From NCBI RefSeq assembly GCF_028198145.1, contig NZ_CP116338.1:2728001-2792000 (forward strand): a stretch of DNA of 64,000 nucleotides, in the 5' to 3' direction. Positions 16,668-53,071 of this stretch are shown here, in pieces. Below the pieces are notes generated by a model. The model worked only from the letters and a program-made list of their open reading frames with translations, searched no databases and was not told the origin of the DNA. Both the position numbers and the translations under genes were made by a program. Source of the DNA: Microbacterium sp. nov. GSS16. GTDB taxonomy: Bacteria; Actinomycetota; Actinomycetes; Actinomycetales; Microbacteriaceae. Each line of letters starts with the position of its first letter. Positions within the stretch are counted from its first letter, which is position 1.

Positions 16668-18305
16668 TCAGAGCTTGAGCTCTCCCAGCGTCACCTTCGC
16701 CTCATAGGTCCTGCCGGAGCGGACGTAGCTCAGCGTGGCCTCGCTGCCGGCCGCCGCCGCGCGAACCTGCGCGGTGAGGTCGCTGGCGCCGGTGATCGGC
16801 ACGCCGTTGAACTGGGTGACGATGTCTCCGGACTTCAGGCCCGCTTCGTCGGCCGCGCCGCCGGGGGTCGGGGTGTCGATCGCGGCGCCCGCGACCGACA
16901 CGCCCTTCACGCTCGACGCGTCGCGCACGGTGGCGCCGAGCAGGCCGTGGGTCGCAGCACCGTCGGCGATGATCTCGTCGGCGACGCGCTGGGCGATGTT
17001 CGACGGGATTGCGAAGCCGAGGCCGATCGACCCTGCCTCGCTCGACGACGAGCCGCCGGCGGTCGCGATCGCGACGTTGATGCCGATCAGGCTTCCCTTG
17101 CTGTCGACGAGTGCGCCACCGGAGTTTCCGGGGTTGATGGCCGCGTCGGTCTGGATGACGGCGATCGAGATCGACTGCTTCGCCTGCTGCTGGCCCATGC
17201 CGGGGATGTCGAATTGGAACGGATTGCCGCTGCCGCCCTGGTCGCCTTCGCTGTCGGGCTGCGCCGAGCTGTCGGGAAGCGCAGACGAGGCGACCTCGAT
17301 GCTGCGGTTCAGCGCGCTGACGATTCCCGTGGTGACGGAGTTCGACAGGCCGAGCGGTGCGCCCACCGCGACGGCGGTGTCGCCGACGTTGAGCTTGCTC
17401 GAATCGGCCATCTCGATCGGGGTGAGATCCTTCGCTCCCTCGAGCTTGATCACGGCGAGGTCGTACACCGGGTCGGTGCCCACGACGCTGGCCTGGAAGA
17501 TCCGGCCGTCGGACGTGGTCACGCGGATGGCCGGGTCGGCCACGGCGCCGCCGAGGGTGACCACGTGCGTGTTGGTCAGGACGTGCCCCTCCTTGTCGAG
17601 GATGACACCGGAGCCGCTGCCCGACTCGCTCGAGCCCGCGACCTCGATGGTGACCACCGACGGCAGCACCTCGCTGGCGATGGCAGTGGTCTCGTTGACC
17701 GAGCCCGGGTTGTTGACCGTGACGCTCTGCGGACCGGTGGCCGACTGGGATGCCGGACGGTCGAACACGGCCGTGCCGATGGCGCTGCCGCCGAATCCGG
17801 CCACACCGCCGACGAGCGCCGCGGCGAGGATGAGACCGGCGACCTTGACCGGTCCGCCGCTCCGCTTCTCGGTGCTGTGCGGGCCCTGCGCGGCGGCCCC
17901 GGTCTGCGGCGTCGATCCGGTCGGGGCGGCGACCAGCGTCGGGTCGAGGCTGAGGGTGGGCTGCTCGGACGAGGGCGATCCCGTCGGATGCTGCGGCTGG
18001 GGCATCCCGTGCTGGGGGGCGCCGTACGGCGCACCGCCGGGGTGGGCGCCGGGCTGGGGGGCGCCGGGCTGGGGGGCGCCGGGCTGGGGAGCGCCGGGCT
18101 GGGACTGGGCCGCGTGACCGAAGCTTCCGCCGGGCTGCGGCGGGGTGCCGTATGACGCGCCCGGCTGAGGTGCCGCGGGGGCCTGCCACCGCGCCTGGTC
18201 GGAGCCGAAGTGCGAGGGCGCGTGCTGCCCGGGCGCCGACGACGGCGGGGTCTGAGCCGAGGCCTCGGGGTTCGAGGGCTGGTCGGGGGTGCTGTTGTCG
18301 TTCAT
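16668..18305 (-). CDS. Membrane-anchored HtrA/DegP-type serine protease with PDZ domain
   Basis: A 545-residue envelope protease. A long Pro/Gln/Gly-rich cytoplasmic part (1-150) includes a four-fold 15-bp DNA repeat (18046-18105) giving QPGAP units. One membrane segment follows at about 155-181. The trypsin-like domain has the full triad: His247 in TNTHVV, Asp282 in YDLAVIK, Ser395 in GNSGGALVD. A single PDZ domain covers about 450-540. Such proteases handle misfolded envelope proteins. The ATG at 18305 has an AAGGAG site. It is divergent from the aminotransferase gene with 97 bp between them. Confidence 0.93.
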   Translation of the reverse strand: MNDNSTPDQPSNPEASAQTPPSSAPGQHAPSHFGSDQARWQAPAAPQPGASYGTPPQPGGSFGHAAQSQPGAPQPGAPQPGAPQPGAHPGGAPYGAPQHGMPQPQHPTGSPSSEQPTLSLDPTLVAAPTGSTPQTGAAAQGPHSTEKRSGGPVKVAGLILAAALVGGVAGFGGSAIGTAVFDRPASQSATGPQSVTVNNPGSVNETTAIASEVLPSVVTIEVAGSSESGSGSGVILDKEGHVLTNTHVVTLGGAVADPAIRVTTSDGRIFQASVVGTDPVYDLAVIKLEGAKDLTPIEMADSSKLNVGDTAVAVGAPLGLSNSVTTGIVSALNRSIEVASSALPDSSAQPDSEGDQGGSGNPFQFDIPGMGQQQAKQSISIAVIQTDAAINPGNSGGALVDSKGSLIGINVAIATAGGSSSSEAGSIGLGFAIPSNIAQRVADEIIADGAATHGLLGATVRDASSVKGVSVAGAAIDTPTPGGAADEAGLKSGDIVTQFNGVPITGASDLTAQVRAAAAGSEATLSYVRSGRTYEAKVTLGELKL

Positions 18306-18402
18306 CTTCTGCTCCTTCTCAATGCCCTATCAGAGTGACAACCGAGTCTGTGCGTTTCGTATGCCGCCGATGACATTCGCCTATGGTCTTAGCCTGTTCT
18401 GC

Positions 18403-19602
18403 ATGGATGTCATACCAGGAGCCTGGCGCCGTACCGCCGCAGGGGCGGGTCTGCTCTCCGCGGACGGCCCGGTCGCCCCCACCATCTTCGCCGAGATGTC
18501 GGCCGCCGCGGTGCGAACCAGGGCGGTGAATCTCGGGCAGGGCTTCCCGGACGAGGACGGTCCGGCCGCGGTGCTGGAGGCGGCGAGGGATGCCATCGCG
18601 CACGGCGCGAACCAGTATCCGCCCGGCCGGGGCATCCCCGATCTGCTCGCGGCGATCAGCGAGCACCAGCACCGCTTCTATGGACTCGAGGTCGATCCGG
18701 GCACGGAGATCCTGGTGACGGCGGGGGCGACTGAGGCGCTGACCGCCACCCTGCTCGCACTCATCGACGGCCCCGACGACGAGGTCGTCGTCTTCGAGCC
18801 GTACTACGACTCGTATGCCGCGGCCGTCGCGCTCGCGGGTGCCCGGCTGCGCACCGTGCCGCTGCGGCGACCCGACTTCCAGCCGGATCTCGACGAACTC
18901 GCCGCCGCGGTGAACGACCGCACCCGCGTGATCCTCGTCAACGACCCGCACAATCCCACAGGCGCCGTGTTCGCACCCGAGGTGCAGGCGGAGATCGTGC
19001 GGGTGGCCGCGCAGCACGACGCGGTGATCGTGACCGACGAGGTGTATGAGCACCTGTCCTTCCACGCGCCGCACGTGCCGATCGCCACGCTGCCCGGCGC
19101 CGCCGAGCGCACTCTCACGATCTCGTCGGCCGGGAAGACGTTCTCGACCACGGGGTGGAAGATCGGCTGGGTGCACGGACCGGCCGCCCTGATCACGGCG
19201 GTGCTGACCGTCAAGCAGTTCCTCACCTACGTGAACGGATCGGCCTTCCAGCCCGCGATCGCGGTCGGTCTGCGTCTGCCCGACTCCTACTTCGACGACG
19301 CCGCGGCCACCATGCTGCGCAAGCACGAGCTGCTCGGCGCCGCACTGCGCACCGCGGGATTCGAGGTGTTCACCCCGCAGGGCGGGTACTTCACCGTGGC
19401 CGACGCCACGGCGCTCGGCGGTGCCGACGCCGCAGCGTTCTGCCGCGCGCTGCCGGAGCGGGCGGGTGTCGCGGCGATCCCGATCAGCGCGTTCGTCACA
19501 CCCGAGAACCAGGGGCGGTACGCCGGCCTGGTGCGCTTCGCCGCCTGCAAGCGCGTCGACGTGATCGAGGAGGCCGGCCGCCGCCTCTCCGGCCTGCGCT
19601 GA
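18403..19602 (+). CDS. Class I/II pyridoxal-phosphate aminotransferase
   Basis: About 399 residues from the ATG at 18403; the open frame begins at 18289, but its extra N-terminus reads through the divergent promoter gap and looks spurious. Fold type I features: NLGQGFPDEDGP near 43-54, DPHNPTG at 181-187, TDEVYEHL near 211-218, and the PLP lysine at 245 in SSAGKTFSTTGWKIGW. The sequence style is close to methionine/kynurenine aminotransferases (YbdL type) and to some DapC-annotated enzymes. A better DapC candidate exists at 61229-62341, so a lysine-pathway role is not assumed. Confidence 0.88.
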   Translation: MDVIPGAWRRTAAGAGLLSADGPVAPTIFAEMSAAAVRTRAVNLGQGFPDEDGPAAVLEAARDAIAHGANQYPPGRGIPDLLAAISEHQHRFYGLEVDPGTEILVTAGATEALTATLLALIDGPDDEVVVFEPYYDSYAAAVALAGARLRTVPLRRPDFQPDLDELAAAVNDRTRVILVNDPHNPTGAVFAPEVQAEIVRVAAQHDAVIVTDEVYEHLSFHAPHVPIATLPGAAERTLTISSAGKTFSTTGWKIGWVHGPAALITAVLTVKQFLTYVNGSAFQPAIAVGLRLPDSYFDDAAATMLRKHELLGAALRTAGFEVFTPQGGYFTVADATALGGADAAAFCRALPERAGVAAIPISAFVTPENQGRYAGLVRFAACKRVDVIEEAGRRLSGLR

Positions 19603-19753
19603 CGCGCCCGGGGCACCGTGGTCGGGCGGCGCGGGCACGTTGGCCGGGTGGTGGGCGCGGGCGTCGCGGGTGCGGCGGGGCGGCGGGGCGGGCACGGGGC
19701 GCAGCGCCGCCGGCACGCGGCACGGGACGGCGTAGGTTCGCGGCGTTCCGGGG

Positions 19754-19968
19754 CCGACACGTTCCGGGGGCCGACACGTTCCGGGGGCCGACACGTTCCG
19801 GGGGCCGACACGTTCCGGGGGCGATACGTTCCGGGGACAATACGTTCCGGGGGCCGACACGTTCCGGGGGCGATACGTTCCGGGGACAATACGTTCCGGG
19901 GGCCGACACGTTCCGGGGGCGATACGTTCCGGGGGCCGACACGTTCCGGGGGCGATACGTTCCGGGGG
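19754..19968. repeat. Tandem array of 13 units of 16/17 bp
   Basis: Exactly 215 bp made of three related units: A, CCGACACGTTCCGGGGG (17 bp, seven copies); B, CGATACGTTCCGGGG plus A or G (16 bp, four copies); C, CAATACGTTCCGGGGG (16 bp, two copies). The order is A A A A B C A B C A B A B. All share ACGTTCCGGGG. A degenerate partial unit precedes it at 19744 and a partial A unit (CCGACACG) begins the inverted repeat that follows. Confidence 0.95.
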
Positions 19969-20025
19969 CCGACACGCCAGATGTCGGACGCTTCACGCGG
20001 ATCGGTCCGACATTTGGAGTGTCGG
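19969..20025. repeat. 21-bp imperfect inverted repeat
   Basis: Left arm 19969-19989 and right arm 20005-20025 match as reverse complements at 19 of 21 positions, with a 15-nt spacer. Each arm also contains its own smaller palindrome (CCGACA ... TGTCGG). The left arm continues directly from the tandem array, and the right arm ends in the GTCGGCCCCC sequence that also introduces the next repeats. Confidence 0.85.
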
Positions 20026-20032
20026 CCCCCGG

Positions 20033-20131
20033 TTCGTAACCGGTGGAGGTGTCGGCCCCCGATTCGTAACCGGCCGCGGAGCGGGCCGTGATTCGTAACC
20101 GGCCGCGGAGCGGGCCGTGATTCGTAACCGG
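20033..20131. repeat. Four spaced TTCGTAACCGG repeats
   Basis: TTCGTAACCGG occurs at 20033, 20063, 20092 and 20121, so the period is 30, 29 and 29 bp. The middle copies are joined by an identical GC-rich linker (CCGCGGAGCGGGCCGTGA). The first copy forms a CCGGTT/AACCGG hairpin. Each of the first two copies is preceded by GTCGGCCCCC, linking this set to the neighbouring array. Confidence 0.9.
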
Positions 20132-20173
20132 TTGCGGAGCAGGCCCCCGCGGGGTCCGCGACGGGCGAGGGGC

Positions 20174-20977
20174 TCAGCGGGGTACGACGCGGTAGCGGCG
20201 CAGCCGCAGCGACGGGTTCGTCTCACGCGTGCGGGCGACCAGGTCGGGGTCGAGGGATGCCACGGCCACGCCCTCCCCCGCGCTGACGCCCGCGACGACC
20301 ACGCCCTGCGGGTCGATGATCTGCGAGAAGCCGACGCCGACGGGAGCCGGATGGTCGGACGCGATCACATAGGTCGTGTTCTCGATGGCGCGCGCGGTGA
20401 GCAGCGTGTTCCAGTGGTGCTCCTTCAGGGGTCCGCGCACCCATTCCGCCGGGACGATCAGGGCGTCAGCCCCGGCGTCCACCAGCGTTCTCGCCACCTC
20501 CGGGAAGCGCAGGTCGTAGCAGGTCATCAGCCCAAACCGCAGGCCGAGCGCGTCGAAGACCGCCGCCTCGCCGAGCGCGCCCGGCTCGATCCAGTCCGAC
20601 TCCCGCTGGCCGAACGCGTCGTAGAGGTGCTGCTTGCGATAGATCGCCTGCACCCCGGCATCCGACACGGCGACGACGGTGTTGTGCACCCGCCCCGTCT
20701 CGGCGGTCTCGACCATCCCGGCGACGACGATGAGGCTGTGCTCGGCGGCGAGCGCGCGCAGCGCCGCGACGAACGCACCGTCGAGGCCCTCGGCGTTGCG
20801 TGCGAGGGCGTCGTCCATCTCCGGCGTGAAGTAGTTCGAGTACTCCGGGAGCACGACCACATCCGCACCACGCTCCGCGGCCGCGGCGACGAGCTCGCCG
20901 ATCCGCTCCCGGTTGCGCTCGGGTGCGGCATCCGGAGCGAACTGGCACACGGCGACGAGAGGAGCTGCTGCGGTCAT
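20174..20977 (-). CDS. Nitrilase-superfamily carbon-nitrogen hydrolase
   Basis: A 267-residue hydrolase starting at the ATG at 20977; the open frame continues upstream to 21295 but only through the remnant described next. The catalytic triad is complete: Glu45 in VLPEYSN, Lys115 in YRKQHLYDAF, Cys153 in LMTCYDLRFPE. This branch, with YDAFGQRESDWIEPG, resembles Nit2/omega-amidase or deaminated-glutathione amidase proteins, which hydrolyse amides of dicarboxylic acids. Cytoplasmic. Exact substrate uncertain. Confidence 0.87.
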   Translation of the reverse strand: MTAAAPLVAVCQFAPDAAPERNRERIGELVAAAAERGADVVVLPEYSNYFTPEMDDALARNAEGLDGAFVAALRALAAEHSLIVVAGMVETAETGRVHNTVVAVSDAGVQAIYRKQHLYDAFGQRESDWIEPGALGEAAVFDALGLRFGLMTCYDLRFPEVARTLVDAGADALIVPAEWVRGPLKEHHWNTLLTARAIENTTYVIASDHPAPVGVGFSQIIDPQGVVVAGVSAGEGVAVASLDPDLVARTRETNPSLRLRRYRVVPR

Positions 20978-20991
20978 GCTGCCATCCTCTC

Positions 20992-21230
20992 TCACTCGCG
21001 CGGCGCGAGCACTCTGTCTTCGGCTGCGGTGAACGCCGTGCGGGCCCCGCGGCGCTCGCGCGAGAACGCGCTGAGCTCGGCCTCGCGCGGCGCGTGTACG
21101 GCAGGAAGAGCAGGGCGACGGCGCCGGCCAGGGCGAAGAGGTTCGGCACCGCCGCCGTGGCGATCCGGATGCCCAGCTGCCCACCCTCCATGTCGCTCCG
21201 GCGGACCCCGTCGTCCGCATGCTCATGGCG
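20992..21230 (-). pseudogene. Decayed C-terminal remnant of a membrane transporter (MFS/GPH-like)
   Basis: On the minus strand one frame reads ADDGVRRSDMEGGQLGIRI and then a hydrophobic helix (TAAVPNLFALAGAVALLFLPY). At about 21085-21095 the sense jumps frame and continues as REAELSAFSRERRG to a TGA at 20992-20994. This looks like the last helix and cytoplasmic tail of an MFS transporter of the glycoside-pentoside-hexuronide type, with a frameshift. No start or upstream part is visible; a tRNA lies just beyond. Family assignment is tentative. Confidence 0.5.
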
Positions 21231-21300
21231 GGACTGGGACGCATGTCCCCGTCTTCGGAGGGTAGCCTGTCCGCGACACGGAGACGAGGGCGCACATGCA

Positions 21301-48937: not shown

Positions 48938-49989
48938 CGCGGGTCGGTCGGATTCGACAGGTCGCTGCCGACTCCGGGCTTCGGCGCCGCGGGGATGCCC
49001 GGAGCCGGATCAGCCGGGCTGGCGGGTCCGTCGATGCCGGGCTCCGCCCCAGGGAGGGGCGGCTTCGGAGGAACGACCGGCCCGCCGGTCGAGCCGGGAG
49101 CAGGGTCGGATCCGGGAGCAGGGTCGGATCCGGGAGCAGGGTCGGATCCGGGAGCAGGGTCGGATCCGGGAGCAGGGTCGGATCCGGGAGCAGAGCCCGG
49201 ACCGGGAGCAGAGCCCGGACCAGGAGCGGGGTCGGACCCGGGAACGGGGTCGATGCCCGGAGCAGGAGAAGAACCAGAGGCGGGATCCGAACCCGGCGCA
49301 GGAGACGCACCGGGCGCCGGATCTGAACCAGGGGCGGGATCCGAACCCGGCGCAGGAGACGCACCAGGCGCAGGATCAGCGACGGGAGCAGGATCAGCGA
49401 CAGGCTGCGGCGACGGAGACATCGGTCCACGCGGAGCAGCGGAATCGGTCTGCCCCGTCGGCGGAACGCGCTCGCCGTACCGCGGCGGCTCGCTGAGGTC
49501 GACCGGCGGACGAACCGTCTGCGGCCGCTCGGGTCCCACGACGCCTCGCGCCTTCGTCAGCGACGCCGGCTGCACCCGCACCTCGTAGTGGTCGGCGAGC
49601 ATCTGCATCATGCTCGCGAAGTCGCGACGACGGCGCACGATCGAGTACGTCACCAGGCTCATGATCATGCCCAGCGCCACACCGATGAGCAGAAAGCCGA
49701 GGAAGAGCGAGATCGGGGCATCCGGGGTGCCGAACAGCATCACAGCCGACAGCAGCAGACCGATCAGCACGCCGTTGGTCGCGCCCGACCGCGCGGCGGC
49801 CGCGTATCCGAGCTTGCCGGTCACGCGCTCGACCGTGCGCACACCCTCGCCGACGATGGCGATGTCACGCGCGGGCACCTCGCCCGCGATCAGCTTCGAG
49901 ACGATCTTCTGGGCGGCCTCGTAGTCCTTCGTCGAGGCGATCACCTCGCCGAGATCGGTGCCTTTTCCCGGTCGATTCAGCATGCTCAT
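48934..49989 (-). CDS. General-stress-protein-17M-like membrane protein with Pro/Ala/Gly/Ser/Asp repeat tail
   Basis: A 351-residue protein from the ATG at 49989; ATG 49983 and a longer frame to 50025 are alternatives. Residues about 10-60 form the domain seen in general stress protein 17M (VIASTKDYEAAQKIVSKLI, RDIAIVGEGVRTVERVTG). Two membrane segments follow (about 75-115). From about 145 on it is a proline-rich tail with PAPGSD-type units; five of these come from exact 18-bp DNA repeats at 49097-49186. The tail could span the wall or be cytoplasmic. Stop overlaps the next gene (ATGA). Confidence 0.75.
   Translation of the reverse strand: MSMLNRPGKGTDLGEVIASTKDYEAAQKIVSKLIAGEVPARDIAIVGEGVRTVERVTGKLGYAAAARSGATNGVLIGLLLSAVMLFGTPDAPISLFLGFLLIGVALGMIMSLVTYSIVRRRRDFASMMQMLADHYEVRVQPASLTKARGVVGPERPQTVRPPVDLSEPPRYGERVPPTGQTDSAAPRGPMSPSPQPVADPAPVADPAPGASPAPGSDPAPGSDPAPGASPAPGSDPASGSSPAPGIDPVPGSDPAPGPGSAPGPGSAPGSDPAPGSDPAPGSDPAPGSDPAPGSDPAPGSTGGPVVPPKPPLPGAEPGIDGPASPADPAPGIPAAPKPGVGSDLSNPTDPR
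49097..49186. repeat. Five exact 18-bp coding repeats
   Basis: GGAGCAGGGTCGGATCCG repeats five times without a change, in frame, encoding one PAPGSD hexapeptide each on the minus strand. Further degenerate units lie on both sides. Identity between copies suggests recent expansion by slippage. Confidence 0.9.
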
Positions 49990-51858: not shown

Positions 51859-52966
51859 CCGCGTGCGTGCGGCGGTCGCCGCCGTCACCGACCCCGAGCT
51901 GCGACGCCCGATCGGCGACCTCGACATGGTGCGCGACATCGACGTCGACGGAACGACGGCGCGGGTCGGGATCGTGCTCACGATCGTCGGATGCCCGGCC
52001 GCCCAGCGCATCGAGCAGGACGTCAGGGATGCCGCAGCTTCCGTCCCCGGGATCGCCGACGTCACCGTCGAGGTCGGCGTGATGACCCCGGACGAGCGGC
52101 GAGCGCTCACCGAGAAGCTGCGCGACGGTCGTCCTGCCCGGCAGATGCCGTTCGGGCCGGACTCGCTGACGCGGGTGATCCTCGTCTCGAGCGGGAAGGG
52201 CGGCGTCGGCAAGTCCACCGTCACCGCGAACCTCGCCGTCGCACTAGCCCGCCAGGGGCTGCGGGTCGGACTGGTGGATGCCGACGTGCACGGCTTCTCG
52301 ATCCCGGGGCTGCTCGGCATCGCGCCGGGCACTCAGCCCACCCGAATCGACGACCTGATGCTTCCGCCTGTCGCCCACGACGTGAAGACCGTGTCGATCG
52401 GCATGTTCCTGCGCGACGGCGAAGCCGTGGTCGCGTGGCGCGGACCGATGCTGCACCGCACCGTGCAGCAGTTCCTCACCGACGTGTTCTTCGGCGACCT
52501 CGACGTGCTGCTCATCGACATGCCCCCAGGCACCGGAGACATCGCGATCTCGATCGGGCAGATCCTGCCGCACGCCGAGGTGCTGGTCGTCACCACCCCG
52601 CAGCCGGCCGCGGCTGACGTCGCGATCCGCAGCGGCCTCGTAGCCAGGCAGACCGGTCAGCGGGTGATCGGCGTGATCGAGAACATGGCCGCGTTCGCCC
52701 TTCCCGACGGAACCCTGCTCGACCTGTTCGGCGCGGGCGGTGGAGCCGAGGTCGCCCGCGCGCTCAGCGCCGACGGCGATGAGGTTCCGCTGCTGGCATC
52801 CATCCCGCTCAGCCCGGCGCTGCGCCGCGGCGGCGACCAGGGCGTCCCGGTCGTGCTCGGCGAGCCCGACGACATCGCGGCGCGTGCGATCGACGACGTC
52901 GCGCAGCGGATCGCCCACCGGGGGCGAGGCCTCTCGGGCCGATCCCTTCCCCTTCGGCTCAGCTGA
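51845..52966 (+). CDS. mrp: Mrp/NBP35-type P-loop ATPase (Fe-S cluster carrier family)
   Basis: A 373-residue protein. The N-terminal DUF59/MIP18 domain (1-85) is followed by a deviant Walker A, SSGKGGVGKST (about 116-126), LVDADVHGFS and LIDMPPGTGD. The usual C-terminal CxxC that holds a bridging Fe-S cluster is missing: the place reads ENMAAFALPDGT. Actinobacterial Mrp proteins often share that, as I remember. It may move or assemble Fe-S clusters. A tandem 14-bp repeat begins at its stop codon. Convergent with tatB. Confidence 0.9.
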   Translation: MTLADRVRAAVAAVTDPELRRPIGDLDMVRDIDVDGTTARVGIVLTIVGCPAAQRIEQDVRDAAASVPGIADVTVEVGVMTPDERRALTEKLRDGRPARQMPFGPDSLTRVILVSSGKGGVGKSTVTANLAVALARQGLRVGLVDADVHGFSIPGLLGIAPGTQPTRIDDLMLPPVAHDVKTVSIGMFLRDGEAVVAWRGPMLHRTVQQFLTDVFFGDLDVLLIDMPPGTGDIAISIGQILPHAEVLVVTTPQPAAADVAIRSGLVARQTGQRVIGVIENMAAFALPDGTLLDLFGAGGGAEVARALSADGDEVPLLASIPLSPALRRGGDQGVPVVLGEPDDIAARAIDDVAQRIAHRGRGLSGRSLPLRLS

Positions 52967-53062
52967 GCAGCGTCGGATGAGCAGCGTCGGCCGAGCAGAG
53001 TCGGCTGAGCAGCGTCGGCTGAGCAGAGTCGGCCGAGCAGAGTCGGCTGAGCAGCGTCGGAT
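52965..53062. repeat. Seven 14-bp tandem repeats between convergent genes
   Basis: Seven consecutive units GAGCAGNGTCGGNN fill 98 bp exactly; N is C or A at the first variable place and the last two bases are AT, CC or CT. The array begins within the TGA stop codon of mrp and ends 9 bp before the tatB stop. Confidence 0.95.
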
Positions 53063-53071
53063 GAACGAAGG

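Follow-up and report, generated by a model that had tools for sequence, protein, structure and literature searches.

What is the composite repeat island at positions 19744..20145 of a 64,000-nucleotide stretch of the Microbacterium sp. nov. GSS16 chromosome (NZ_CP116338.1, 2,728,001 to 2,792,000; the window, below, is this whole stretch), and which of its parts matters? The original prediction, made from the letters alone, placed ordered tandem units at the heart of the island. What it saw looks like overgrowth, and beneath it there seems to lie a palindrome-nuclease system of Microbacterium that has not been described before. On balance we favor a reading in which a dispersed family of palindromes, of which the island holds one copy, belongs to, and is spread by, a gene that we call X, which encodes an AbiEi-like DNA-binding part fused to a Vsr/EDxHD-like nuclease part. 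The palindrome looks mobile, occurs dispersed in part of the genus, and has a sequence apparently matched to X, whose product would be a DNA-cutting protein of a type for which no such repeats are known. Genomes and loci are given G and L handles where they must be told apart, the present genome being G000.

The composite structure is real: Tandem Repeats Finder (TRF) recovers both the left tandem array (19744-19976; periods 17/33/49, scores 347/350/359) and the array with 29/30-bp spacing, which it places within 20015-20145. Exact units (A, ACGTTCCGGGGGCCGAC; B, ACGTTCCGGGGGCGAT; C, ACGTTCCGGGGACAAT) parse the left array into 13 units over 215 bp (19759-19973) in the order AAABCABCABABA; the predicted order, AAAABCABCABAB, fits when counting starts from a truncated first A. 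The four predicted TTCGTAACCGG repeats start at 20033, 20063, 20092, and 20121. TTCGTAACCGG has no exact match outside the island, and CGTTCCGGGG has 14 of its 23 genome copies inside it. An inverted repeat reported as 21 bp does exist and is larger, with 34-nt arms that are 88% complementary and 15 nt between them, and the predicted RNA fold of the region is a very stable hairpin (z = -6.92). The near-perfect core of this palindrome, 19964-20030, consists of two 26-bp arms that resemble GGGGGCCGACACKCCAGATGTCGGAC, separated by 15 bp, and is extended by weaker end boxes of ~10 bp each, recognized by eye from the genome copies. Since the final A unit of the left array is also the left end of the inverted repeat, what the left array reiterates is an end of the palindrome itself; and since the left array repeats the left end box and arm and the right array the right end box, both arrays are reiterated palindrome ends. 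The parts are as follows:

19964..20030, + strand: palindrome core of 67 bp, two 26-bp arms around a variable centre of 15 bp (69 bp with the outermost pair), one of 20 copies in the genome
19954..19963, + strand: left end box GATACGTTCC; copies in the same genome resemble GTTACRYTYC, by eye
20031..20040, + strand: right end box GGTTCGTAAC; resembles GDTTCGYAAC, by eye
19744..19973, + strand: left tandem array: 14 units, 16/17 bp long, in A/B/C variants, each unit the inner left end box plus the outer left arm
20031..20145, + strand: four TTCGTAACCGG units at 30/29/29 bp spacing, the reiterated right end box

The palindrome recurs across the genome. A 21-base arm pattern with at most 3 mismatches has 20 forward and 20 reverse matches in the 2.9-Mb sequence (a control pattern has 0), each forward match is paired with a reverse match exactly 36 bases on (20/20), and no solitary arm was found in this genome at the same threshold. 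The plan is constant: 67-69 bp, with 26/27-bp arms and a centre of exactly 15 bp. At E 1e-4 a covariance model finds the palindrome in 49 of 247 genomes of the genus, with copy numbers that are lower bounds because at most 20 candidates were scored per genome; an exact pattern matches 30 stretches in a one-genome-per-species collection, every one named Microbacterium, and plasmid and phage collections gave no match at E 0.01. Sequence is conserved beyond hairpin shape alone (22 of 67 columns are invariant in an alignment of 26 copies). Between G000 and its sister species M. commune (G059), 11 orthologous copies differ at 20/572 positions in the arms and 25/165 in the centres, in surrounding DNA that is mostly 85-91% alike (range 75-95%). 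Among copies listed with 12-bp flanks, no GTAG tag is common to the outer ends or to the points where arm and centre meet; the centre of one copy (L037) does contain a GTAG. Two copies in G000 lie in frame within genes, one for a PfkB kinase (L024:1692-1758) and one for a beta-propeller lactonase (L026:1684-1750); each domain is matched in two stretches, and the palindrome precedes the better one. These copies add a GADTPDVG...GPTSGVSAP-like insert. The presence/absence pair G065 versus G130 is clean, with flanks ~94% alike, and, as a single case, shows no obvious target-site duplication (the MITE/DDE criterion); in this pair both end boxes are absent along with the core.

Two palindromes flank X at a conserved site beside fumC, usually before a phoH-like gene. 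All of the 30 best X matches, which are the best-scoring and not a random draw, adjoin fumC and/or phoH. Over 24 loci, a median of ~106 bp separates the upstream palindrome from the first aligned codon of X, and a downstream palindrome of at least 19 pairs is present at 20 of the 30 loci, at a median of 24 bp. PF13338, the AbiEi winged-helix part, is above cut-off in 4/4 proteins; structure comparison gives matches to 6y8q, which points to a predicted AbiEi-like fold; and the catalytic fold and conserved acidic and His residues of EDxHD enzymes are present, E218 and D220 being among the conserved residues. PADLOC yields N-terminal AbiEi matches and no others, NCBIfam yields none, and PHROGs has nothing below E 0.1. 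Among the neighbors, fumC and the phoH-like gene, no AbiEii gene is evident by eye, no family search for AbiEii having been made. In G000 the X at this site (L023:5149-5983, G000:C1 ~2849748-2850582) is frameshifted near L023:5562, and the 20 palindromes persist. The same genome carries another AbiEi-DUF559 homologue, of ~55% identity (L194, G000:C1:202223-203047), with a different palindrome, of TGTCGGC type, found on its downstream side only.

In lineages without the window-type palindrome, X is flanked by other sequences on a shared 27-15-27 plan. Of 60 X flanks in all, 41 have at least 20/27 pairs and a 15-bp centre, against 0/180 shuffled flanks. Type 2 has TGCACGAC-N11-TGCACGAC arms, and at least four further sequences occur besides it. 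Type-2 arm matches number 9-33 in seven genomes with type-2 flanks, which carry type 2 beyond X, versus 2-11 in six others, where, among the matches listed, two inspected in G211 are true palindromes and 12 in the other five are not. For the window type, counts from the genome scan give at least six model rows, a number beyond what two flanking copies could yield, in 14/15 genomes with window-type X flanks versus 2/15 others. At the fumC/phoH site, arm sequence tracks the X protein and not fumC: across 26 loci in this setting, the correlation of arm distance is 0.58 with X protein distance (p 2e-4; 0.57 given fumC) and 0.14, not significant, with fumC distance (p 0.11). This analysis counts loci L203 and L205 as 'other', drops loci without a dyad (3/30 and 11/20), and omits G150 from the fumC comparison; when all 36 loci are pooled, the correlation with X vanishes (0.07, p 0.18). 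Twenty further X-like loci were hand-picked, not randomly, from the X match list; L203 and L205 are fumC-phoH loci, and of the 18 that lie elsewhere, 7 have palindromes of other sequences and 11 have none, by a criterion of at least 19 pairs on one or both sides. In some genomes, X has one type while scattered copies of another are kept (L180 in G034, L191 in G065, L225/L238 in G211), as if cassettes had been exchanged and had left fossils.

Comparison between species separates the palindrome from its arrays. The window copy sits between convergent gene ends:

18289..19602, + strand: upstream neighbor, an aminotransferase-like open reading frame (label by eye), with a DNA match in 28/28 genomes searched
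20174..21295, - strand: convergent neighbor, a nitrilase-like open reading frame (label by eye; start uncertain)

At this gene-end site the palindrome is present in G059 and G065, and none was found at the other 26 of 28 loci. M. commune has it at the orthologous site with one partial extra end copy, without the 14-unit array and without the four TTCGTAACCGG repeats, and at three orthologous sites aligned together with their arrays the arrays differ between the species. Arrays beside other palindrome copies use different units. A TRF score of at least 100 is reached on 12/40 copy sides versus 12/600 non-coding control points, the non-coding mask being a rough codon-composition rule. The palindrome is kept and the arrays are not; the tandem units look like local overgrowth of palindrome ends, contrary to the central place that the original prediction gave them, and the dispersed part is the central palindrome. 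We regard the arrays as probable side effects of the hairpin, left where it broke or where replication slipped.

The 27-bp arms and 15-bp centre would suit a dimer of an AbiEi-EDxHD fusion, and for this reason we propose the palindrome as a site at which X binds and probably makes a nick or cut. AbiEi is described as binding a pair of 23-bp inverted repeats with 3 bp between them and Rv2827c as binding pairs with a 13-bp gap (PMC7319586), and for I-Bth0305I dimerization is described on a target that spans nearly 60 bp (PMC3943268). Binding of the palindrome by X is likely and nicking or cutting plausible. Each arm would hold one of two X molecules, in the manner of AbiEi and Rv2827c on their paired repeats, and the nuclease parts of the two would meet over the 15-bp centre, which could explain why the length of the centre is fixed and its sequence free. 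We hypothesize that cutting by X spreads the palindrome: a nick or break at the centre could be repaired from another copy, in a homing- or REPIN-like manner. Break repair could also swap palindrome-X-palindrome cassettes for others of new specificity, and breaks or stalled replication at the hairpin could duplicate adjacent DNA in tandem, giving the 16/17-bp and 29/30-bp arrays. Computation supports the dispersal and geometry of the palindromes, the constraint on their arms, their flanking of X, the variation of arm type with X, and the predicted fold; binding, cutting, spreading, cassette exchange, and the origin of the arrays are inferences. More tentatively than for the island itself, we suggest that these elements may form a new class of bacterial selfish repeat, evolved independently of REPIN/RAYT: palindromes that an AbiEi-EDxHD nuclease binds, cuts, and spreads, changing specificity through cassette replacement, with tandem arrays as breakage scars.

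The original prediction knew of no described element of this form, and none turned up in our searches; in the open-access PubMed Central (PMC) literature we found no paper that connects dispersed palindromes with DUF559 genes or AbiEi-nuclease genes. The closest likeness is to REPIN/RAYT systems (REPtrons), and we read the palindrome and X as a similar pair built on a different enzyme. Both have short hairpin palindromes, built from two inverted halves and dispersed over the genome, together with a partner gene that has cognate copies alongside, several sequence types with a partner for each, and ordered tandem clusters in places (PMC3116915, PMC8266576). The pair described here would work like a REPIN/RAYT pair but misses the defining features of that family: its partner is an AbiEi-like and Vsr/EDxHD-like nuclease rather than an HUH tyrosine transposase, and its 20 copies have a fixed 15-bp centre, no shared GTAG tag, and no solitary halves found in this genome. 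AbiEi and Rv2827c operators share the AbiEi-like fold and paired long inverted repeats (23-bp arms with a 3- or 13-bp gap, versus 27 and 15 here), but X has a fused nuclease, and its sites stand to either side of the gene as well as throughout the genome. The catalytic domain of X has the fold of EDxHD homing endonucleases (I-Bth0305I) and Vsr, but no intron or intein is seen around X, which is instead flanked by palindromes, and we know of no methylation or mismatch link for X. CGTC-REPs and the Rickettsia palindromic elements, the latter with in-frame coding copies, are likewise palindromes without their own RAYT and have intragenic copies, but they differ in sequence and architecture. CGTC-REPs are described without a dedicated transposase, and Actinobacteria are not among the five phyla listed for them (PMC3733652).

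Other explanations would do without spreading by X. The palindromes could be an operator family, with X an AbiEi-like self-repressor acting through the upstream copy, other copies operators or strays, and the nuclease acting elsewhere in defence or repair; this is unlikely, though it deserves more weight than the other alternatives. The position of the upstream palindrome agrees with it, as does the described binding of AbiEi and Rv2827c to paired 23-bp inverted repeats in their own promoters (PMC3985639, PMC7319586), but the second palindrome downstream of X, the window copy between convergent gene ends, and the two in-frame copies do not. Much less probable is that the copies are chromosome-organizing sites near the origin, like parS or Noc sites. 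In a test of six genomes in which dnaA was located and a single contig carried most copies, copies lie closer to dnaA than chance in G000 (p 0.0021), G034 (0.00066), and G106 (0.0025), and the longest copy-free arc of G000 spans 1.39 Mb (p 0.0009), but G209 (0.17), G211 (0.077), and G204 (0.056) are not significant at 0.05. (The test left out G059, G005, G094, G158, G119, and G189, with dnaA known, and G180, G203, and G207, without a dnaA search, and dropped unpaired single-arm matches at G204 1407733 and G211 453941.) The copies are moreover patchy across the genus, inherited sites are not independent, and older copies may survive better in stable origin-near DNA. Significance is reached in 3/6 genomes, and we do not take origin clustering as the main function; it may reflect survival or a separate use.

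Hairpin terminators or RNA stabilizers at gene ends, a marginally less probable reading again, would fit the very stable hairpin and the place of the window copy, but not conservation of the sequence itself, the in-frame intragenic copies, or the 26/28 loci at which no palindrome was found at the window gene end. That the tandem units are themselves functional as a protein-binding array, as the earlier reader held, is suggested by their regular order and spacing; their near absence at the orthologous M. commune site, and the fact that the compared sites have their own arrays or none, make this quite improbable. Least probable of all is a REPIN driven by a RAYT: size, two inverted halves, and dispersal resemble REPINs as described (PMC3116915), but no Y1_Tnp domain (PF01797, the HUH Y1 transposase) was found in G000 and 34 genus mates, with 5/14 control genomes positive; the 2/58 positive genomes both lie outside the genus. 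The lack of solitary arms also argues against it.

Dispersed palindromes are common in bacteria, and the spread of some families, such as CGTC-REPs, is described as unexplained (PMC3733652). The family described here pairs several natural sequence types with a matching candidate enzyme whose fold is different, and exchanging types would put recognition and cutting to a direct test. The family would also give meaning to Microbacterium genes now labelled 'AbiEi family antitoxin domain', 'DUF559', or 'endonuclease domain', and would offer a natural model of hairpins seeding tandem repeats.

Rfam at gathering scores gives one tRNA as its only match in the window, and none at the island. The window has other long tandem arrays at 49094-49395 and 52962-53064 (periods 18/54 and 14/42), with no palindrome copy nearby in the arm-pattern genome list. 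An array match in G049 proved to be an unrelated 18-bp repeat, coding by eye. The sequence TCCACGATCCGCAGGATCCTGCACGAC, which is not a palindrome of the present family, has five identical occurrences in G004 (L216, L229) and is perhaps an insertion sequence.
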